In this document: piece after piece, positions 4,786-52,686 of the stretch
Numbering within the stretch: position 1 is the first letter of the stretch
How the letters are laid out: each line of letters starts with the position of its first letter
Source of the DNA: a virus
Virus record (IMG/VR): IMGVR_UViG_3300045440_000165
Location: 1-64,000 of that record
Reading direction: 5' to 3' (one strand)
DNA length: 64,000 nt
Notes under the pieces: model-generated
The model's input: only the letters and a program-made list of their open reading frames with translations
What the model was told of the DNA's origin: nothing
The model's database searches: none
Position numbers and translations under genes: made by a program

Positions 4786-5310
4786 CTAATCTGTGTATAA
4801 CCAATATGATAGAAAATTAACTACGAAATCCACAGATACACATATTTCCCCTTTATTTTGTAAATCATTCCTATCTTCAATAAACATTTCTTTTGTTGGA
4901 TTTTTTAAAATTAAAGTAGACATATCTGAAATTATTTTTGGTAACGGTTTATTTGTCTTTACTTGAAAAACTTGTACACCACCTTTCAGTATAAACATTA
5001 AGTGGTATGTATCCTGCGGCGTATCCTGCGGCGTATCCTGCGGCGTATCCTGCGGCGTATCCTGCGGCGTATCCTCCAGAATATCCTCTTGATATTCCAC
5101 TTCTTTAATCATAGCTTTAAATGCAGCTATCGTACTTCTTACGCCATGCATGAAAATATCTCTTGCTGTGCTTCCATTTCCCCCTCCATACTCCACTGCT
5201 GAACAACATTGTATCTCAGCTTCTTTTAAATATTCTTTATTATCTTCGATAGTTATGTTATCTAAAGCGGATATTAGCGCATCGTAGCTTGTGTATTTTC
5301 CAGTATTCAT
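4786..5310 (-). CDS. Hypothetical protein with tandem DTPQ repeat linker
   Basis: The 174-residue protein has a helical N domain (to about residue 80), a linker of five DTPQ units (about 80-100), and a beta/alpha C domain. The linker comes from five exact 12-base repeats, so its length probably varies by slippage. No family is recognised. The two-domain, flexible-linker design suggests a binding partner at each end. Confidence 0.65.
   Translation of the reverse strand: MNTGKYTSYDALISALDNITIEDNKEYLKEAEIQCCSAVEYGGGNGSTARDIFMHGVRSTIAAFKAMIKEVEYQEDILEDTPQDTPQDTPQDTPQDTPQDTYHLMFILKGGVQVFQVKTNKPLPKIISDMSTLILKNPTKEMFIEDRNDLQNKGEICVSVDFVVNFLSYWLYTD
5011..5070. repeat. Five exact tandem copies of a 12-bp unit
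   Basis: ATCCTGCGGCGT is repeated five times without a mismatch, inside and in frame with the 174-residue gene, where it encodes the DTPQ linker. Exact identity implies recent expansion. Confidence 0.95.
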
Positions 5311-6367: not shown

Positions 6368-6396
6368 ATTCTACGTCTAATTTTTGTACATTGCAA
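6368..6396 (-). promoter_or_regulatory. Leftward early promoter with spacer palindrome
   Basis: Read on the minus strand: TTGCAA (6396-6391), 17-base spacer TGTACAAAAATTAGACG, TAGAAT (6373-6368). The spacer keeps the TGT...AATTAGAC pattern seen in four rightward promoters. It drives the operon beginning at 6337. Confidence 0.7.
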
Positions 6397-6525
6397 GTAA
6401 ATGATAAAAATAAATCTGTTATTTTAAAACATGCCCACTATGATTTCAAATCTGAAAATGGCTAGAAAGTCTCCCATTTTTTTACCTTCCTTCTTAAGGG
6501 ATTTTTCCCCATTCCTAACAAAAAG

Positions 6526-6555
6526 ATAACAATTGCTTAAATCATAATATGTCAA
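6526..6555 (-). promoter_or_regulatory. Possible second leftward promoter
   Basis: On the minus strand TTGACA (6555-6550), an 18-base spacer and TGTTAT (6531-6526). The -10 is weak; it may be an auxiliary start for the same operon. Confidence 0.35.
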
Positions 6556-6803
6556 AAAGATAATATTAGCTATTCTGCAATATTTATTTATTGCAATAAT
6601 AAAGAAATAACAACAAATTATATTACTTACATTGTGTTTATATAAATATCCTCTGATAAGCTATTAAACGAGTTATAAGCCATTTTATTAATTCGCCTAG
6701 GTTTGGTATTAACTTCTGAAAATAATCGATTCTAGAGTGGTTTAAAGCGCTTGCTTGCCTCGCATTCAGTGTTAAAATTCAGCTAATTTAAACTCTAAAG
6801 ACG

Positions 6804-6844
6804 CAAAAAAGCACTCACGGCAAGAAATTGTGCCTATGAGTGCT
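6804..6844 (-). terminator. Intrinsic terminator of the small RNA (leftward)
   Basis: On the minus strand AGCACTCA (6844-6837), inner stem GGCA/TGCC, then TGAGTGCT (6817-6810), followed by a run of T (complement of A at 6805-6810). It has no gene directly upstream on that strand, which points to an RNA gene. Confidence 0.8.
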
Positions 6845-6886
6845 AATATATTAATGCTCGAATTGTGGAGGCATTTTGCGCCTCAG
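6804..6886 (-). ncRNA. Candidate ~80-nt small RNA with two hairpins
   Basis: Between promoter 6892-6919 and terminator 6804-6844 lie about 80 bases with no ORF. The RNA would start near 6885, form a first hairpin GAGGC/GCCTC (6884-6880 with 6872-6868), a single-stranded AU-rich stretch, and end in the terminator hairpin with a U-tail. This is the layout of a bacterial trans-acting small RNA. Its promoter resembles the early promoter family, so it could be coexpressed with the early genes. Target unknown. Confidence 0.6.
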
Positions 6887-6891
6887 TTAGA

Positions 6892-6919
6892 ATTTTACAT
6901 GATTTTTTAGACTTTGCAA
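6892..6919 (-). promoter_or_regulatory. Promoter of the candidate small RNA
   Basis: On the minus strand TTGCAA (6919-6914), 16-base spacer AGTCTAAAAAATCATG, TAAAAT (6897-6892). The -35 equals that of the early family; the spacer keeps GTCTAA but has lost the second half of the palindrome. Confidence 0.5.
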
Positions 6920-7048
6920 AGAATTTTTGAGGAATGTCAAATTTAAATTTTTATTGTGGCGTAAGCTTACTAGTGTTGTTAAACACAATTACTGTTGTAG
7001 CACGAATTTATTAATTTATTCACTCACCCACTTAAAGGAATTTTTATC

Positions 7049-7402
7049 ATGTCGCAAATTTTGTGCAGATTAGACAGTCAATTATCCCCAGTGGTTTTTA
7101 TATCTGACAGCATTGACGATAATAAAATATTAGCTTGGAAGAATGGTAATAAAAGTGCTGAAATTGTTAGTCTTGATTATTATAAAACTACTCTACCCTT
7201 AACTATTGCAGATAGTAAATTACTCGCTAAAAAATACAGCGAAGCCACGGGCGATAATGATATAGAGATTCGTCAACGATTGCCAAGACTTTACAAACAG
7301 AAAGATATATTGCAAGATAAAGAACTTAAAAAAGATATTGACCAACAGAAGATTGATGAGCTTGCGCATAAAATCGCTAAGATTATAGCGGAATACCTTT
7401 AG
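7049..7402 (+). CDS. Hypothetical early protein
   Basis: The 117-residue product starts MSQILCRLDSQLSPVVFISD after an AAAGGA site. It has a mixed N half and a charged helical C half ending KIAKIIAEYL. It is the first gene of the rightward early block and lies upstream of promoter 7534. Family not recognised. Confidence 0.65.
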   Translation: MSQILCRLDSQLSPVVFISDSIDDNKILAWKNGNKSAEIVSLDYYKTTLPLTIADSKLLAKKYSEATGDNDIEIRQRLPRLYKQKDILQDKELKKDIDQQKIDELAHKIAKIIAEYL

Positions 7403-7455
7403 TAAGTATCCCCAGTAAAACAGCTTTAAAATTCTTTTTAAATTTATTTTCAAAA

Positions 7456-7513
7456 TTCGCTTGCGTATCTAAACTACTTTTGATATATTGAGGGTCTGGA
7501 CGGGGCAAGCGAA
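7456..7513. repeat. 9-bp inverted repeat upstream of an early promoter
   Basis: TTCGCTTGC (7456-7464) and GCAAGCGAA (7505-7513) pair perfectly around a 40-base loop that holds a smaller GTATC/GATAT stem. It sits between the first early gene and promoter 7534-7562 and could be a weak terminator or regulator site. Confidence 0.5.
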
Positions 7514-7533
7514 AGAAGTAAATAATTTTTTAC

Positions 7534-7562
7534 TTGCAATGTCTAATAATTAGACATATAAT
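7534..7562 (+). promoter_or_regulatory. Early promoter with perfect palindrome in its spacer
   Basis: TTGCAA (7534-7539), 17-base spacer TGTCTAATAATTAGACA, consensus TATAAT (7557-7562). The spacer is a perfect palindrome with 8-base arms, so a dimeric protein bound there would sit between the two RNA polymerase boxes. Best copy of the family. Confidence 0.85.
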
Positions 7563-7594
7563 TAGCTAGGCTTACAAATAAGGGAGTGTTAATC

Positions 7595-8149
7595 ATGCTT
7601 GACAGCATAACAATTGAGAAATGCGGATATTCTTTTGATGTGATTATGGAACAAGATTGTCATATGTCGCCCCCTTGGTTAGATTTTGATGGTCATGGCG
7701 TTATTGTTGACAAAGGTTTGTTTAATCATAAAAAACCAAGCGAATTAAAACTAGGGAGTTATCATTTTTATGATTTTAGATTATCAATGCAAAAAGCGTT
7801 AACTGAATCGTGGAGCATTCCTGAGGATTTAAAGTTACAGCTTGAATTTAAAAAAGGAGCTAATCTTACAAAACGAGAAATTGCGCACCATGCTGTAATG
7901 CAGGATTATAAATATCTATCAGATTGGTGTGATGATAGATGGACATTTGCTGGAATTAGAGTCAAATGCGGGGAAAATGAAAAAAGTTTATGGGGAGTGG
8001 AATATAAATATTTTGTTGATATTGAACAACAGAGTTATTTAATGTCTACAATTCATGATGTAATTGATGAACTTGTGTATACAGTGACTAAGGAGCAACA
8101 GGAAGTTGAATTTTGGAATATGCGCGATGTTGTAACATGCGTTTTATGA
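7595..8149 (+). CDS. Hypothetical early protein
   Basis: ATG at 7595 is chosen because AAGGGAG ends 8 bases before it; an in-frame GTG at 7586 lies within that site. The 184-residue product starts MLDSITIEKCGYSF, has an aromatic-rich N half with HMSPPWLDFDGHG near residue 24, and a C half rich in Asp, Tyr and Trp. Compact soluble protein; family not recognised. First gene behind promoter 7534. Confidence 0.7.
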   Translation: MLDSITIEKCGYSFDVIMEQDCHMSPPWLDFDGHGVIVDKGLFNHKKPSELKLGSYHFYDFRLSMQKALTESWSIPEDLKLQLEFKKGANLTKREIAHHAVMQDYKYLSDWCDDRWTFAGIRVKCGENEKSLWGVEYKYFVDIEQQSYLMSTIHDVIDELVYTVTKEQQEVEFWNMRDVVTCVL

Positions 8150-8190
8150 CATGCGTTTAATATTGGCTTATTCTGTTATGTTAGAATAAG
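8146..8190 (+). promoter_or_regulatory. Possible promoter overlapped by a second inverted repeat
   Basis: ATGACA (8146-8151), 17-base spacer and TATTCT (8169-8174). CTTATTCT (8167-8174) and AGAATAAG (8183-8190) form an 8-base inverted repeat over the -10 and start point. It could be an operator or a short mRNA hairpin between two genes. Confidence 0.4.
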
Positions 8191-8226
8191 GTAGTGTTTA
8201 AAAATTACTTAAATAAAGGAAATAAA

Positions 8227-8568
8227 ATGCCTAAAAAAGAACCTTATGAATACTTGCAAGAACTTGAAAATTCGGCATGGTCTAGAGCTGAATCTTTTAT
8301 AATTATCGATCCTAAAAATAGCCCACTTAGCAAGCATGGCAAAATAAAAGTAGCATACCCCGCGAAAGGTGAAGGGAAATTGCAAGCGTTTGTATGGGAT
8401 ATATTAGGGCATCCGGTGCAACGTGGAGTTGCTAGAGGTTATGGGTATGATAAGTTAAGCTCTGCATTAGCAGGGTTAAAATTTGATACTATCACTTTCA
8501 CGGATCATCCGACAAATTGGGATACGCGATTAAGAGGTGCAGGATATATAATTATTCGCGCAATGTAG
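8227..8568 (+). CDS. Hypothetical early protein
   Basis: ATG at 8227 (MPKKEPYEYLQELE) follows AAAGGAAATAAA; the upstream in-frame start has no ribosome site. The 113-residue product is mostly beta in appearance after a helical start, with GKIKVAYPAKGEGKLQAFVW and a Gly-rich GVARGYGYDK loop. The family is not recognised. Confidence 0.65.
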   Translation: MPKKEPYEYLQELENSAWSRAESFIIIDPKNSPLSKHGKIKVAYPAKGEGKLQAFVWDILGHPVQRGVARGYGYDKLSSALAGLKFDTITFTDHPTNWDTRLRGAGYIIIRAM

Positions 8569-8599
8569 GGTTTTAAAATTACTTAATAAAGGAATAAGC

Positions 8600-8701
8600 A
8601 TGTCAGTATTTAAATTAACAAAAGAACATCAAGCCAAAATTAAATGCGAGGTTTATAGTTTTTTAAAAACTATTTGCCCAAAAGTAGATAGGAAATATTA
8701 A
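8600..8701 (+). CDS. Very small early protein, 33 residues
   Basis: ATG at 8600 after AAAGGAATAAGC, stop at 8701. The product MSVFKLTKEHQAKIKCEVYS and onward is a basic helical peptide. The upstream DNA repeats that of the preceding gene (TTTTAAAATTACTTAATAAA), supporting a real start. Function unknown. Confidence 0.5.
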   Translation: MSVFKLTKEHQAKIKCEVYSFLKTICPKVDRKY

Positions 8702-8703
8702 TC

Positions 8704-8835
8704 GTGTATAAACTAATTAGATTTTGCGCATGGTATCAAGTAGTTTTAGTATCTAACAATAAAGTTATGTTTCAATCAATTAATAAACGACGAGCGCAAG
8801 AATGGTTAGATATTAATTCGATTAATGCAGGGTAG
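8704..8835 (+). CDS. Very small early protein with GTG start, 43 residues
   Basis: GTG at 8704, two bases after the previous stop, with AGGA upstream; product (M)YKLIRFCAWYQVVLVSNN and onward, ending in a short basic helix. It fits between its neighbours with no gap. Family not recognised. Confidence 0.45.
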   Translation: MYKLIRFCAWYQVVLVSNNKVMFQSINKRRAQEWLDINSINAG

Positions 8836-8879
8836 TCTTTGTTACTACGCGCTAACTGCAATTTTAAATAGGTGATATT

Positions 8880-9053
8880 ATGCATATAAATGTAAGATTT
8901 TTTATATATTGCGGTAATAATGAGGAATGGGAGGTTGTAGAGTGTACAGAATCGGAATTTCTCAATGCTGAAGGGGTGATTGAGTATGAAAGGAATACAG
9001 CGTTTCAAAACGGGGTGAATCAAATCTGTCTTACTAAAAATCCTTTTATTTAA
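8880..9053 (+). CDS. Small acidic early protein, 57 residues
   Basis: ATG at 8880 preceded by AGGTGA; product MHINVRFFIYCGNNEEWEVV and onward, with acidic centre. It is followed directly by promoter 9067. Family not recognised. Confidence 0.55.
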   Translation: MHINVRFFIYCGNNEEWEVVECTESEFLNAEGVIEYERNTAFQNGVNQICLTKNPFI

Positions 9054-9066
9054 TCGTAGAATTTAC

Positions 9067-9095
9067 TTGTGTTGTCCACTTTTTAGACTTATAAT
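9067..9095 (+). promoter_or_regulatory. Early promoter, spacer-motif family
   Basis: TTGTGT (9067-9072), 17-base spacer TGTCCACTTTTTAGACT, TATAAT (9090-9095). The spacer ends keep TGTC and AGAC. Confidence 0.7.
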
Positions 9096-9127
9096 TAGTT
9101 GTACTATTAAATTTAAAGGGGAATACT

Positions 9128-9277
9128 ATGCTAGATGAATTATTGTTTGAGGATATTAGTTTTAGCACTAAAATTGTATTGGCAGGGTTTATTTTGTTAG
9201 CTCCTGTATTATATGCCAGTGATAGTATTGTAAATTATGCTATCGCAAATTTTGCTATTTTACATTTTTTATTTTAA
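9128..9277 (+). CDS. Small membrane protein, 49 residues
   Basis: ATG at 9128 with AAAGGGG upstream. The product MLDELLFEDISFSTKIVLAG and onward has one hydrophobic segment at about residues 16-30 and a second hydrophobic tail. Probably an inner-membrane peptide. Function unknown. Confidence 0.55.
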   Translation: MLDELLFEDISFSTKIVLAGFILLAPVLYASDSIVNYAIANFAILHFLF

Positions 9278-9287
9278 GGGGGATATA

Positions 9288-9536
9288 ATGGAAGATTACT
9301 ATATTTTCTTTGTCGCAGAGTGTTACTTAAGCGCTATTATTAACGACGATTACTCAGGGATTGAGGACGATGCAGAGCGTATGAAAGTGAGTGATTTTAT
9401 TGTGGAGTGTCACAGACTAGGTAGGGGACATTTCAGCGTAGACTTAGAATATAGCGAGAATTTCAGGAGGTGCTACATCAGTGGCTTATTCGCGGATTGT
9501 GAGGAATTAAGATATTATGTAAGGAGTAAGGCTTAA
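9288..9536 (+). CDS. Small acidic early protein
   Basis: ATG at 9288 (MEDYYIFFVAECYL) is chosen because AAGGGGG lies 5 bases upstream, unlike longer in-frame starts. The 82-residue product is acidic and aromatic with a possible helix-strand fold. The family is not recognised. Confidence 0.6.
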   Translation: MEDYYIFFVAECYLSAIINDDYSGIEDDAERMKVSDFIVECHRLGRGHFSVDLEYSENFRRCYISGLFADCEELRYYVRSKA

Positions 9537-9556
9537 TATTTATTTTGCTTGTGTGC

Positions 9557-9585
9557 TTGCAATGTCTGAAAATTAGATTTACAAT
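9557..9585 (+). promoter_or_regulatory. Early promoter, spacer-motif family
   Basis: TTGCAA (9557-9562), 17-base spacer TGTCTGAAAATTAGATT, TACAAT (9580-9585). Downstream AGCTAGGCTTACAAATAAGG is the same as after promoter 7534, so the whole promoter-leader block was duplicated. Confidence 0.75.
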
Positions 9586-9617
9586 GCAGCTAGGCTTACA
9601 AATAAGGGAGTGTTATT

Positions 9618-9773
9618 ATGTCGTACGAACAAAGGTATAATTTTACAATGTATTCACCATTGGTAACACTTGCGCCATTGCTAAGGTATAGTCTTGCAAA
9701 CGATGATTTTGGTAATCTTGTCATTGTATCGGCTATTTCGTGGCTGTCAGCTCATTATTTTGTTAATAATTAA
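9618..9773 (+). CDS. Small membrane protein, 51 residues
   Basis: ATG at 9618, with AAGGGAG, directly behind promoter 9557. The product MSYEQRYNFTMYSPLVTLAP and onward has two short hydrophobic stretches (about residues 11-25 and 33-48). Probably membrane-associated. Function unknown. Confidence 0.55.
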   Translation: MSYEQRYNFTMYSPLVTLAPLLRYSLANDDFGNLVIVSAISWLSAHYFVNN

Positions 9774-9787
9774 TTAAGGGATATATC

Positions 9788-9991
9788 ATGTCTAAACATA
9801 CGCCAGTGCATATTATTAGCGCGCATATAACAACTAATTTAAAGACTAACATTAAGACTTACTATTTAAATAGCAAACGAGTATCTAAGGACGTGTATAT
9901 TCTAAAGGAAATAGCAGCTAAAAGTTTTTATTGCTTATATAGAACATGTTCAAAAACCCACTGCAGGGATTATAAGACTTTTATTTATTGA
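9788..9991 (+). CDS. Small basic early protein
   Basis: A 67-residue product after AAGGGA: MSKHTPVHIISAHITTNLKT and onward, basic, with Cys/His pairs near its end (YRTCSKTHCRDY) that might bind a metal. No family recognised. Confidence 0.6.
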   Translation: MSKHTPVHIISAHITTNLKTNIKTYYLNSKRVSKDVYILKEIAAKSFYCLYRTCSKTHCRDYKTFIY

Positions 9992-10001
9992 AAGCATTAT
10001 T

Positions 10002-10229
10002 ATGAGTATATACGAAATTTGGATTAAGCACGATAAAATTCATAGAAAATACAGAAAGTTATCGGTTACAATGAAAGAACCTATGTTTAGTGTTGCAAGC
10101 TTATATGCGGATCAATGGGCGATTGATAACAATCAAAATAGAGATTTAATAGCGGTAAAGATTGTCAATTCTGACACTAGGTCTGAATTTATAATGTGTA
10201 GCAAGGCTACTTTTAGAATTGAAAGTTAA
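10002..10229 (+). CDS. Small basic early protein
   Basis: A 75-residue product, MSIYEIWIKHDKIHRKYRKL and onward, with a basic N half and mixed C half. The ribosome site (AAAG) is weak. Family not recognised; position and strand fit the early block. Confidence 0.55.
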   Translation: MSIYEIWIKHDKIHRKYRKLSVTMKEPMFSVASLYADQWAIDNNQNRDLIAVKIVNSDTRSEFIMCSKATFRIES

Positions 10230-10271
10230 ATTAGAATTTTTAAAGGCTAAGAAATAAAGAGATAAATTTGC

Positions 10272-10300
10272 TTGTAATGTCCACTAATTAGACATATAAT
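10272..10300 (+). promoter_or_regulatory. Early promoter, spacer-motif family
   Basis: TTGTAA (10272-10277), 17-base spacer TGTCCACTAATTAGACA, TATAAT (10295-10300). Fourth rightward copy; the right half of the palindrome is intact. Confidence 0.75.
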
Positions 10301-10336
10301 TAAATACCTTCTTAAATTTAATAAAGGATGTTTCTT

Positions 10337-10504
10337 ATGTTAAAACTAGCATTAGTACGCAAAGCTATAAAGTTATTTCCTGTTGTTGATTACACTAATA
10401 AAGATAATGTTAAACATGCGCGTAAGGAGTGGATAAAGGCGCAATATTATTTAAGAGATAATAAGTTGTCTATGAAGCCGTTGATTAATATCAAGGGAAA
10501 TTAG
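10337..10504 (+). CDS. Small basic early protein, 55 residues
   Basis: ATG at 10337 after AAAGGATG, first gene behind promoter 10272. The product MLKLALVRKAIKLFPVVDYT and onward is strongly basic and helical. Family not recognised. Confidence 0.6.
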   Translation: MLKLALVRKAIKLFPVVDYTNKDNVKHARKEWIKAQYYLRDNKLSMKPLINIKGN

Positions 10505-10505
10505 T

Positions 10506-10787
10506 ATGAGAACATGGACAAAAAGAGATGAATCCAAGTTAGAATATTTAGGTTTAATAGAATTTAAAATTAATAACGAGTGGCATAATTTTGAGATTAT
10601 GCACGACAATGAGTATGTTGTGTTTGGTAGTGCTACGAACACGGGGTTTTTGCAAAGTGGCTATATGCTAAAAGATGAATTCTTAGCATTAGACGAGAAC
10701 TTACAACAGTTACTAGAGGAATTAGAGACGTATTACCATCTAGGTAAAGAATATTGTTCTAGCATTGTCACTAATGAAAGGATGTAA
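10506..10787 (+). CDS. Hypothetical early protein
   Basis: The 93-residue product starts one base after the previous stop with AAGGGA upstream. It is acidic, with beta-like N half and a helical segment ENLQQLLEELETYYHLGKEY. Family not recognised. Confidence 0.62.
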   Translation: MRTWTKRDESKLEYLGLIEFKINNEWHNFEIMHDNEYVVFGSATNTGFLQSGYMLKDEFLALDENLQQLLEELETYYHLGKEYCSSIVTNERM

Positions 10788-10791
10788 AACC

Positions 10792-11190
10792 ATGAAAAAA
10801 GCAATTAAAATCACAGATAGTAATAAAGATGTAATAGAATCTTTATTAAAACAAATCAATGGTCGAAGTGTAACACATGTATATTCATCATTTAAAGATG
10901 TGGAAAGTATTGTAAGTCATGCAGAAAAGCAATTGGCATCTTTACGACTTCCTAAGAAAATGTATAAGGATGCAAAATATACGAGCGTATCCGGTGATAG
11001 TGTTGCAAGCGCGTATAAGTATGGCAGAAATGCAACTGAAATTGTAATTGTTAGAAAATCCGCTGCATGGTATGTTGAGAAGGTTAGAAGTGTAAATGTC
11101 TTTGCAAGCGGCGGAAATGATAGACTTTACTTGACAGAAAAGCAAGATATAGAAGTGGTTAAGAAAGTTAGACAATTATATAATGTGTAA
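10792..11190 (+). CDS. Hypothetical early basic protein
   Basis: ATG at 10792 (MKKAIKITDSNKDVIE) has GAAAGGATG upstream and follows the previous stop by four bases; a longer in-frame start would overlap it. The 132-residue product is basic, with two GGND/GDS type loops and a helical end. The family is not recognised. Confidence 0.65.
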   Translation: MKKAIKITDSNKDVIESLLKQINGRSVTHVYSSFKDVESIVSHAEKQLASLRLPKKMYKDAKYTSVSGDSVASAYKYGRNATEIVIVRKSAAWYVEKVRSVNVFASGGNDRLYLTEKQDIEVVKKVRQLYNV

Positions 11191-11224
11191 TTCATACTAT
11201 TTGCTGGATAAATAAAGGAAATAT

Positions 11225-11521
11225 ATGTCTAATTTAAAAGATAAAATGCCTCCCAGTAATATCAGTACTGAAGAATTCTTTAAGTATTATTGCAAGGATG
11301 ATAATGCTATATTGTTTTACGAGCAAGCTAGAGATTCTCAAGACAATGCAGAAAGAAGAATTAAACCTTTAGAAAATGAAAACGAATGTATAAGGGAACA
11401 ATTAAATTTTGCTTTAGACGCTATCAGAGATATGGAAATTATGCTTGATAGAGTAACAAGATTGACAGAGTATAAAAAAGAGTTTATTAGAATTTTAGAT
11501 GATAGCTATTTGGAAAGATGA
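11225..11521 (+). CDS. Coiled-coil early protein
   Basis: 98 residues; after MSNLKDKMPPSNISTEEFFK the product is a long charged helix (about residues 35-95) with heptad-like spacing. It probably forms a dimer or binds a helical partner. Ribosome site AAAGGAA. The family is not recognised. Confidence 0.65.
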   Translation: MSNLKDKMPPSNISTEEFFKYYCKDDNAILFYEQARDSQDNAERRIKPLENENECIREQLNFALDAIRDMEIMLDRVTRLTEYKKEFIRILDDSYLER

Positions 11522-11533
11522 GAGGGTGTCACA

Positions 11534-11989
11534 ATGAACGAAAATATAATCATAGCAAGTAAAGTAGCCGCAATTAATCAAATGCATAGCTTTATTAATG
11601 GGATAGTTCCAAAGCTTATTGATATGCTAAAACAAGGGTATAAATGTAAAAAGGATGGAAGTTTGTTCGATAAGGATGCAAGGGATTTACAGGGAATAAT
11701 TAACAATGGCAGTGTGAAGTTACATTCTGCATTTGTCGATAGTAATGGGTATTCTGTTGTCTTGAGAGTTAAGAATGCCTATAAAACGGGGGAGTATAGC
11801 TGCAATTACGTAGAGCGTTCTGTGTGGCTATGTTCTTATGAACGAATTTTCGAGGAATTTACTCCATTTTGTGAGAACATGACAGAAAGTTATTATAAGA
11901 ATATTCAAGATATAATAGAAGAAAAGCAAGAGATGATTGATAAATTGCAAGGTGAGATAATGACAGCTAAAAGGGAAATATATTTATAA
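11534..11989 (+). CDS. Hypothetical early protein with helical ends
   Basis: The 151-residue product has a helical N region (MNENIIIASKVAAINQMHSF), a beta-rich middle with several Cys, and a charged helical C end (IIEEKQEMIDKLQGEI). GAGGGTG serves as ribosome site. The family is not recognised. Confidence 0.65.
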   Translation: MNENIIIASKVAAINQMHSFINGIVPKLIDMLKQGYKCKKDGSLFDKDARDLQGIINNGSVKLHSAFVDSNGYSVVLRVKNAYKTGEYSCNYVERSVWLCSYERIFEEFTPFCENMTESYYKNIQDIIEEKQEMIDKLQGEIMTAKREIYL

Positions 11990-11998
11990 AGGGAGTGT

Positions 11999-12319
11999 AT
12001 GATACCAACAACTGATAGAGTGCTATTCTTAGATGCTTACATTGAGTGTGCGGAATGGGCAGACGAGGAGTTACTTGCATACTGCGACACTGAAACATTT
12101 ATGAAAGATGCAATAGAAGATTGCAATTCGTTTATAATAGCTAATGAGGAATTATTAACAGAGTATTGCAATCGCGGCTATGATTTAAGTCAAGCTGGAC
12201 ATGACTTTTGGCTAACACGTCAAGGGCATGGGGCGGGTTTTTGGGATAAAGGCATGGAAGAACTAGGGGAACAATTGACAGCGATTGCCGAAGCATACGG
12301 GAGTTATTGCAATTTATAA
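11999..12319 (+). CDS. Conserved phage protein with FWLTR-GHGAGFWD motif
   Basis: The 106-residue acidic product contains HDFWLTRQGHGAGFWDKG near residues 71-88, a motif I know from many small unknown phage proteins. The role is not established. It is the last gene of the rightward block and is followed 24 bases later by a strong terminator. Confidence 0.75.
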   Translation: MIPTTDRVLFLDAYIECAEWADEELLAYCDTETFMKDAIEDCNSFIIANEELLTEYCNRGYDLSQAGHDFWLTRQGHGAGFWDKGMEELGEQLTAIAEAYGSYCNL

Positions 12320-12342: not shown

Positions 12343-12368
12343 AAGCCACTCTAACCGGTGGCTTTTTT
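12343..12368 (+). terminator. Intrinsic terminator ending the rightward early block
   Basis: AAGCCAC (12343-12349) pairs with GTGGCTT (12358-12364), followed by a T-run to 12368. It closes the early operon. Confidence 0.88.
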
Positions 12369-13619: not shown

Positions 13620-13796
13620 TTACTTAGGAACGTGGACACGAGGTATTCGCTAGTAGGTACGAGCTACCTGAACGAAGTGATTATCTGCGAATGCTAGCGA
13701 ATTACATGCGCAATAGCGAATCCTACGAACGTAGTGAGGTATCGATGAGCGATAGCGAGTTACCATCTGGTAACAATATCCTACCACCTTGTGGTA
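13620..13796. repeat. Palindrome cluster beside the serine recombinase gene
   Basis: Short palindromes follow each other: GGTACGAGCTACC near 13657, CTACGAACGTAG near 13724, GTTACCATCTGGTAAC near 13759 and TACCACCTTGTGGTA near 13782, the last inside the recombinase 3' end. CGCAATAGCGAAT (13709-13721) recurs inverted at 34447-34459. These could be resolution sites for the recombinase or selfish small palindromes. Confidence 0.5.
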
Positions 13797-14500
13797 ATAT
13801 TCGCCACAGTCTTAGCATACCATTTCCCTCCCCGTTGAGTTTTATTACCATGTAAATTTAACTCTTCAGCTATAGCATGAAAGCTCATCCCATCTTTACG
13901 CATACGAGAGATTGTAGGTTTCATGAACAATGCAAAATTATCAGCTTCTTGCTTATTAGCAATTACACTTTGCTTGTTAGCTTTATGAGCATGAGCGGCT
14001 ACAGTTGGAAGAGACATTCCTAATGGCTCCCCTCTGGCTTTCTTAGCAGCGAAAGCAGCTTTAGTCCTCTCACCAATCTTCCTACGCTCCTCTTCTGCAA
14101 AGGAAGCTCTCAATTGAATTTCTAGAGGAGATACATCTATCCCGCATTCAGCTACGATAAATTTGGCAGAGCCATATTTGGTAGAAGAGTCCATGAGATT
14201 GAATATAAAGCTAGCTTTCCTAGACAGCCTATCAATCTTAGAAATTAGAATAGAAGCTCCTATCTTCTGAGCATCTTTGAAAGCTTGCTTTAGTATGGGC
14301 CTTCTATCAAGATCATATTTACCAGATACTATTTCTACCCTAGTATCAATTATCTCAATACCGTGGTAGCTTGCAAAGCGCTTCATATCTTCTATTTGAG
14401 CTTCCACCCCTAATCCTGATTTCCCTTGCTCTGTAGTGGAAACACGAGCATAGGCTATTACTTGCTTGCAAGCTATAGCTTGTTTAGATATTGATTTCAT
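13781..14500 (-). CDS. Serine recombinase (resolvase/invertase family)
   Basis: The 239-residue protein has the resolvase N domain: YARVS with nucleophile Ser21 and Arg19, then KIDRLSR near residue 79 and the helix E segment FAEEERRKIGERTKAAFAAK near residue 134. A C-terminal helix-turn-helix region (about 200-239) ends in a segment resembling resolvase DNA-binding ends. The catalytic residues are all present. Resolvases of this kind resolve dimers, invert segments or, less often, integrate DNA. The adjacent palindromes are natural candidates for its site. It does not by itself prove lysogeny. Confidence 0.88.
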   Translation of the reverse strand: MKSISKQAIACKQVIAYARVSTTEQGKSGLGVEAQIEDMKRFASYHGIEIIDTRVEIVSGKYDLDRRPILKQAFKDAQKIGASILISKIDRLSRKASFIFNLMDSSTKYGSAKFIVAECGIDVSPLEIQLRASFAEEERRKIGERTKAAFAAKKARGEPLGMSLPTVAAHAHKANKQSVIANKQEADNFALFMKPTISRMRKDGMSFHAIAEELNLHGNKTQRGGKWYAKTVANITTRW

Positions 14501-51330: not shown

Positions 51331-51717
51331 CGTTGTGTTCAAGATTGGTCGCTAATCAATCCCCGCTCTAATTGGTACACGATGACTACGTATCTCCCCT
51401 GCTTGAAGCTGTGCAGGGCTAGGGCATTACTCCTAGTATTTTCCAATTGCAAGCTGCTACATATCCCTATATAGACCAGACTATATCATCAACCATTTTA
51501 CTCTAGTAACTCCAGCATAACACTGGCAGATGGTTGCTTACCGCTTCGTACCGCTTGGTACTACTCCCTTTTGAGGATAGTCGTTGCTCTTTCCAGATAT
51601 ACCGCTAACTTAGCGCATTCAATTTTATTCTGGCTTAGATCAGGATTACGTGTTCTACGCTTCCCCTGAGTTCAATAAGTTTGCAATATACATTACTGTA
51701 TAAGGGTGCTATTACTA
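51331..51717 (-). ncRNA. Group I intron (IA2 type, no ORF) in nrdA
   Basis: The 387 bases between the exons contain the group I core in order on the minus strand: CAACGACTATCC (51586-51575), the P7.1/P7.2-like GGGAGTAGTACCAAGCGGTA, and GATATAGTCTG (51487-51477), where GACTA pairs with TAGTC as P7. These are almost the same as in the T4 td and nrdB introns. The 3' end reads GAACACAACG with a final G, like GAACATAATG in td; the 5' exon ends in T. An in-frame TAG follows exon 1 at once. No endonuclease ORF is inside. Confidence 0.92.
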
Positions 51718-52686
51718 ACACAAGTTGCTTCCACGAATCTTCAACCCTTTAGCCCTCTGAGTTTCTGGCATCTTCCGATTAGCCTCATCAATCTTCAGCA
51801 GATATGGCTCACCTGTCAACGCTCGATTCTCAAGAATATTCTCCCATACTTCCCGCGCTCTAAGCTCCTCATAAACTTTCCCGCTATGAGGACATACTAG
51901 CGGATAGGTAGTGTTATTCTTAACCGCCTCAATAAACTTATCTGTAATATTAACAGCACTATGATATTGCTGCCTATTATCACTTCGCCTTTTAGCATCT
52001 CCCCCCGGCTTACGGAAATTAATATGCTCTACAATATCAGGGTGATCTACATTCAAGTATGATGCAATAGCTCCACGTCTATTCTGCTGCCTGAAATATC
52101 CAATAGCACTATCCATAACTTTCTGATACGGGATATTACCTACAGCCTTGCCTCCCACTCCACGAATAGAAAGATGTGCTCCAGTACCACCTCCAGACAT
52201 AGAGAGCGTAGCAAGCTCTTGAATAGCTTCTACTTGCCCTTGTGCTGTATCTGGTACATTGAATGCAAAGCAGCTAATAGGAAGTCCATGTTGCTTCTCT
52301 TCTGCAATGAAAGTAGATGTGTACCAATAGTGCTTCCCTTGCTTAGCTTCATCTTCCACCCATCTCCCTTTAGTTGCATTACTAAGCACAGGGGAAGCAT
52401 ACATGAACCAACCATTGTAAACATAGTCATAAATACGTTGAGCTAATTCATAATCCCCGTAGCAGAAAGCAGTAGCAGGGCGAGCTAGAGCTTTAGAAAT
52501 ACTCTCCCCTTCTCGTTTATAAAATCCATCGAGTAATGTCTTAGAAAACTCCGTAATATATGCCGGATCATTCTCATAAATCATAATACCATTGTAGGGT
52601 ATCTTCGTACCATTCTTAGGTACTAAAGTACCTAAATAGGGTACTTTTTCTGCTGAGTTACACACTTCACTAGCATTATTAGACAT
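51718..52686 (-). CDS. nrdA: Ribonucleotide reductase large subunit, exon 1
   Basis: Exon 1 encodes 323 residues. It lacks an ATP cone and starts the catalytic barrel at about residue 30. Cys139 in LPISCFAFNVP is the first redox cysteine. It ends KIRGSNLC, where Cys323 is the thiyl-radical cysteine and Asn321 binds substrate. After splicing the text reads SNLC-SEITLPT, giving a 639-residue class Ia alpha subunit. The intron thus splits the active-site loop between Cys and Glu. It overlaps the upstream gene by 8 bases. Confidence 0.93.

Follow-up and report, generated by a model that had tools for sequence, protein, structure and literature searches.

Five probable early promoters of a PAK_P3-like phage with a conserved, partly palindromic spacer

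Five promoters in a phage related to the PAK_P3/KPP10 group resemble one another not only in their -35 and -10 boxes but also in the sequence between them, which is 17 bases long in all five. The preliminary description of this DNA had proposed that a protein binds between the boxes as a dimer. A sequence element within the spacer has good support, as it is conserved between at least three lineages of copies and as related phages keep a different but likewise conserved spacer element; a dimer on the dyad is plausible, with modest statistics and two good copies in its favour.

Five promoters of one class

The window, i.e., the whole stretch of DNA described, makes up the first 64 kb of a record of 75,734 bases. 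The terminase, DNA polymerase and capsid resemble those of PAK_P3/KPP10/Pakpunavirus-like phages at about 40-53% identity, and Limnohabitans phage DC31 gives the best capsid match (53%) among the named phages in the sampled matches listed. Relatives in IMG/VR are short contigs with 93-96% identity and longer contigs with at most 76%.

A pattern search of the full record placed the five sites where they had been described (Table 1): with up to three mismatches allowed, exactly these five were found, and the reversed-pattern control gave none. A PWM built from the five scores them at 34.5-40.8 bits, and the next-best position, which falls in the polymerase gene, at 13.6 bits; when each site was omitted in turn from the PWM, it still ranked third to fifth among all positions. 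Four sites point rightward and one leftward, as the earlier account of divergent copies on both strands had it, and the distance from the end of the -10 box to the ATG is 28-33 bases throughout. A sigma-70 consensus scan lists 7534, 10272, 9557 and 6368 (9-10 of 12 matches), and 9067 falls short of the listing through its -35 box; it should be noted that the scan gave 48 sites where 36 were expected, so that a listing is weak by itself. The five sites are most likely one class of host sigma-70 promoters.

Both gene blocks served by these promoters are probably early genes, by analogy with PAK_P3, in which RNA-seq has identified a block of ORFans, gp74-gp112, as the early region (PMC4933390). 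This PAK_P3 block holds many of that phage's annotated promoters. In the window, a small ORF (7049-7402) sits between the divergent promoters, and the leftward block includes a 174-aa ORF (4786-5310, minus strand) in which DTPQ is repeated many times over in frame (DTPQDTPQDTPQ...). A lysogeny module was not recognised among the ORFs that were read, and a gene for a serine recombinase is present.

Table 1. Promoters, leaders and gene blocks in the window
Feature	Position	Strand	Remarks
Promoter TTGCAA-tgtacaaaaattagacg-TAGAAT	6368-6396	-	Spacer 6374-6390, 4/8 palindromic; leftward operon, ATG 6337
Promoter TTGCAA-tgtctaataattagaca-TATAAT	7534-7562	+	Spacer 7540-7556, perfect 8/8 palindrome; before ATG 7595
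Promoter TTGTGT-tgtccactttttagact-TATAAT	9067-9095	+	Spacer 9073-9089, 4/8; before ATG 9128
Promoter TTGCAA-tgtctgaaaattagatt-TACAAT	9557-9585	+	Spacer 9563-9579, 4/8; before ATG 9618
Promoter TTGTAA-tgtccactaattagaca-TATAAT	10272-10300	+	Spacer 10278-10294, 6/8; before ATG 10328 or 10337
Leader GCTAGGCTTACAAATAAGGGAGTGTTA, 27 bases	7565-7591	+	Identical to 9589-9615
Leader GCTAGGCTTACAAATAAGGGAGTGTTA, second copy	9589-9615	+	
Rightward block of small ORFs	7586-12319	+	Four of the five promoters; mostly without family matches; probable early genes
Leftward operon, ORF 1, 60 aa	6155-6337	-	Starts at ATG 6337; no family
Leftward operon, ORF 2, 81 aa	5913-6158	-	C-terminal helix-turn-helix; candidate regulator by position

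Conservation and relatedness of the copies

All five copies have in common C-TTG at the -35 box, TGT at spacer positions 1-3, TTAGA at spacer positions 11-15, and TA.AAT at the -10 box; the spacer consensus is TGTCYAM-TAA-TTAGACA. The boxes had been described as variable around a constant spacer, a contrast that the alignment contradicts: five of six positions are invariant in the -10 box, three of six in the -35 box (plus the C just upstream) and eight of 17 in the spacer. The boxes thus vary no more than the spacer does.

Not every copy is independent of the others. The promoter-leader units at 7534 and 9557 are probably duplicates, as their identical leaders suggest, and the copies at 9067 and 10272 have the left spacer half and pieces of the leader in common. 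Together with 6368 they form three lineages, and the effective copy number is about three. Recent duplication of one promoter-leader cassette, the spacers having had too little time to diverge much, would explain the pairs within lineages, but as an account of the whole family it is unlikely: between lineages there is for the most part little likeness in the leaders and upstream flanks, whereas the 29-base promoter remains similar. If each lineage is represented by one member, identity extends to 12 of the 17 positions of the spacer (p ~7e-9 against an AT-rich background), and the least favourable choice of members leaves eight (p 1.6e-4). Judged by these comparisons, duplication alone does not account for the likeness of the spacers. 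The cassettes of this kind known from T4-type phages, the PeSLs, pair a promoter with a terminator stem-loop (PMC2988021; PMC4503421), whereas the five promoters have no such stem-loop in common, and none of the terminator-like sites at 12343, 9219, 8335, 12666 and 7390 adjoins a promoter in a repeated manner. Like the window promoters, T4 early promoters and PeSLs have a consensus that extends beyond the boxes and are repeated among small early genes, but the additional consensus in T4 consists of TGn and UP elements, without a spacer palindrome (PMC2988021; PMC4503421).

Dyad symmetry

The best copy, 7534, is indeed a perfect palindrome with 8-base arms. A palindrome across the entire spacer, as had been claimed, is seen in this copy only; 10272 retains six of eight Watson-Crick pairs, each of the other three retains four, and conservation is lacking at the outermost base on the right. 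Over the five copies, 26 of 40 cells are paired (Watson-Crick), with a column permutation p of 0.0014 for a fixed centre and 0.009 when the centre is left free; without copy 7534 the value is 0.011, and it is 0.04 when each copy pair is represented by its less favourable member. Sliding one arm by 1-3 bases lowers the paired cells from 72.5% to 15-43% (G-U counted). A dyad in the five-copy spacer family is thus modestly supported.

The dyad is a sequence element and not a hairpin, as indicated by arms that do not covary: a compensatory change was found in no pair of the dyad across the five copies. A hairpin or cruciform acting as a structure, as in the early promoters of phage N4, could be suspected from the single-strand fold of 7534 (-5.2 kcal/mol, z -5.2), but the other four copies fold weakly or not at all, and an ORF resembling the giant virion RNA polymerase was not seen apart from a tape-measure-like protein. 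This explanation is very improbable, and an N4-type hairpin promoter is largely refuted by the fold and covariation results.

Two further explanations start from the position of the dyad or from the gene content. A dyad that lies wholly between the boxes would suit activation of the MerR type, in which a dimer untwists an over-long spacer. MerR promoters need spacers of 19-20 bases, and the 17 bases found in all five copies, the sigma-70 optimum, refute this type of activation, to which we attach next to no probability. The palindrome might instead bind the phage serine recombinase (13781-14500), acting also as a repressor; the gene is present, and the left arm, TGTCYRNTA, is similar to the half-sites that resolvases of the Tn3 type use. 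Known dimer sites of recombinases span 25-34 bases, but TGTC to GACA covers only 17, and among 14 half-site-like matches in the genome there is no inverted pair at a spacing of 25-34 bases, which leaves a very slight chance for such a site. The hairpin, MerR and recombinase-site readings were all set aside, as was a MotA reading (see below).

A candidate regulator

That one regulator could switch both early blocks, as had been suggested, fits the layout of the promoters, and the regulator itself is putative. The proposed protein, the 81-residue helix-turn-helix protein, is encoded in the leftward operon, and nothing links it to the site; it is a candidate by position only. Its gene is second after the leftward promoter, so that a self-regulating loop is possible. 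Several Pfam helix-turn-helix models match its C-terminus weakly, all below the curated cut-offs. Of five AlphaFold2 single-sequence models one is confident (85.9 versus 48-59), and the PDB matches of the model are generic. A homologue was not found in IMG/VR or in the related records; an apparent relative in genome G029 was rejected, since the ORF runs antisense to the terminase gene of G029. The other early ORFs tested included no conspicuous DNA-binding protein.

Motif searches and promoters of related phages

The exact motif had no match in IMG/VR, and a looser 17-base motif matched 18 contigs once each, several of them carrying one identical sequence and none a comparable promoter family. 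The motif was absent from the bacterial and archaeal genomes searched. A spacer not conserved in related phages had been named in advance as an outcome that would refute the idea; the exact spacer occurs in none of 46 related records, but these records are essentially devoid of the neighbouring early genes tested as well, and the absence is therefore not decisive. The proteins at 7586, 8227, 5312 and 5913, used as queries, retrieved no early-gene relatives from IMG/VR, and for the 7586 protein nine phage records contain weak relatives (27-34%). Limnohabitans phage DC31 contains no comparable promoter family, and no description of these promoters was found in the open-access papers searched.

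Promoters of the relatives' own were sought with a fixed-seed PWM and a reversed-sequence null; a freely iterated PWM converged on coding noise and was dropped. A class with the form GTGCTTGNNNTGCTTAGNNNGCTTNNG-TANNAT recurs in five related genomes (G004, G008, G010, G012 and G013), in which the sites are mostly clustered within one region per genome and lie before small ORFs. Over the 28 distinct sites, conservation at bases 2-5 of the spacer is about that of the TTG of the -35 box and exceeds that of most of the -10 box, and a direct repeat of TGCTT with period 9 extends from the -35 box into the spacer (p <0.001). These promoters resemble those of the window in being a repeated class with a CTTG -35 box and a strongly conserved 17-base spacer, and AACAAAC-GGAG occurs in some leaders of both; they differ in that the spacer holds a period-9 direct repeat and no palindrome. 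Under the PWM of this clade, window copy 9557 exceeds the null. The shared traits suggest common descent of the class.

The spacer element might be read asymmetrically, with the dyad as an incidental feature; the reader would be the host polymerase, another factor of the host or an activator made by the phage. In the window, the right half, TTAGA, is conserved more strongly than its left partner, and the weak -35 boxes (TTGCAA, TTGTAA and TTGTGT) could call for an activator; in the 28 sites of the relatives the direct repeat comes without a significant palindrome (p 0.06). Against this stand the significant dyad of the window promoters and its perfect copy at 7534, as well as the lack of a direct repeat in the spacer motif of the five promoters (p 0.81). 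A MotA-type activator was likewise not found: the MotA family (PF09114, PF09158) has no match in this genome or in 14 related records. An asymmetric element has a minor but real share of the probability. TGCTT near -30 in the relatives recalls the MotA box of T4 (PMC2988021), and the repeats resemble T4 MotA boxes both in sequence and in where they lie. The phages that carry them have no match to the MotA family.

A third arrangement is found in PAK_P4, in which six promoters among small hypothetical genes carry GGCCATTC-N5-GAATGGCC over the -10 box. These phages are related to that of the window and have one palindrome at promoters in blocks of small hypothetical genes (at six promoters in PAK_P4, at single ones in PAK_P3), but the spacer has 16 bases, the palindrome straddles the -10 box instead of the spacer centre and the sequence is unrelated.

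A built-in operator as the preferred explanation

The explanation that we prefer, with confidence a little short of even, is that these are early promoters of the sigma-70 type, each of which contains an operator at which a dimeric phage regulator shuts off both blocks. The sequences show the sites and their placement, the conserved spacer, a modest dyad and the lack of covariation; the early timing, the binding of a protein, its dimeric state, repression in preference to activation and the identity of the regulator are inferred. In this scheme, the host sigma-70 polymerase would read the five promoters on phage entry. A small phage protein made early, probably dimeric, would then bind the 17-base operator in the spacer and exclude the polymerase. 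Both early blocks would fall silent, and with them the leftward operon, in which the regulator itself may be encoded. The graded symmetry of the copies (8/8, 6/8 and 4/8) would result in graded affinity. Repression is preferred because the site lies wholly under the footprint of the polymerase.

This operator would agree with the finding that all five sites precede ORFs and none occurs elsewhere in the record, with the conservation of the spacer between lineages, with a dyad that is centred on the spacer and shows no compensatory changes, with the helix-turn-helix gene in the leftward operon, and with the relatives, which have their own promoter families in which the spacer is conserved and, in PAK_P4, a palindrome over the -10 box. 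Three observations argue against it. Three of the five copies retain only four of eight pairs; copies 7534 and 9557 have kept an identical leader, yet the symmetry of the spacer has been lost by decay, contrary to what strong selection on a dyad would lead one to expect; and the conserved spacer of the related clade is a direct repeat, not a palindrome.

Operators inside the spacers of phage early promoters are classical, with lambda OL1/OR1 and P22 Arc as examples. The lambda operators lie inside the early promoters pL and pR; they are pseudo-palindromes of about 17 bases located mostly in the spacers of divergent early promoters, and one dimer can block both. The window sites would resemble them in this, with a dyad that is modestly supported for the family and perfect in one copy. 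The window differs in sequence, in having a single putative operator at each of its five promoters, where tandem triplets of operators were not seen, and in that no CI/Cro homologue was identified, the helix-turn-helix protein having sub-threshold family matches only. The Arc operator in Pant also lies between the -35 and -10 boxes of a phage promoter and is bound by a small repressor (putative here), but it serves a single promoter, and Arc is a ribbon-helix-helix protein whereas the window candidate has a helix-turn-helix. The spacer sequence and its repetition at five promoters are new in this phage, and the proposed type of control is familiar.

The elements compared here, apparently a spacer inverted repeat in the window, direct TGCTT repeats in the sister clade and a palindrome over the -10 box in PAK_P4, raise the rather doubtful prospect that each PAK_P3/KPP10-like lineage builds its own fast-changing early-promoter element, read by lineage-specific regulators, and that operator and regulator diversify together, at a faster pace than the promoters. 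If this were true, such regulators would time or shut off early transcription. The switch-off of early genes in virulent phages is often not understood, and the shut-off in T4 has been reviewed as relying on strategies still unknown (PMC2988021). An operator-like spacer common to five promoters marks a regulon and offers a bait for the controlling phage protein; if the families of the sister clade and PAK_P4 work alike, they would form a natural series for studying operator-regulator turnover.

Other observations

Genome G029 (L086, L087) contains a further promoter family, with five members whose spacer is conserved in part (TTGACAaaaCACAACtatTGTGGTATAAT), at 2402-, 13345-, 16900-, 16978+ and 25267+ (sign giving the strand); some copies precede head genes, and one contains CACAA-cta-TTGTG.

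Inverted repeats with the -10 box in the loop are enriched in sigma-70 promoters of this phage group (L160, L162, L159, L156 and relatives such as G029, G028 and G013), the left arm lying in the spacer and the right arm at the end of the -10 box and in the discriminator. Arms of at least 7 bases occur in 15 of 301 native promoters, compared with 0.6% after an exchange of halves among promoters within a genome (p 6e-10), and in 16 of 308 in place, compared with 0-6 after shifting. The arm sequences vary by promoter (AGGGCTC/GAGCCCT, ACCTAGAGT/ACTCTAGGT, TGTGGTGAA/TTCACCACA), so that the recurring feature is the dyad and not the sequence. In the window phage, none of 10 promoters has such arms of 6 bases or more.

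Elsewhere in the window, a group I intron (51457-51727, minus strand; Rfam RF00028, 68 bits) separates two ORFs that resemble halves of the gene for the large subunit of ribonucleotide reductase.
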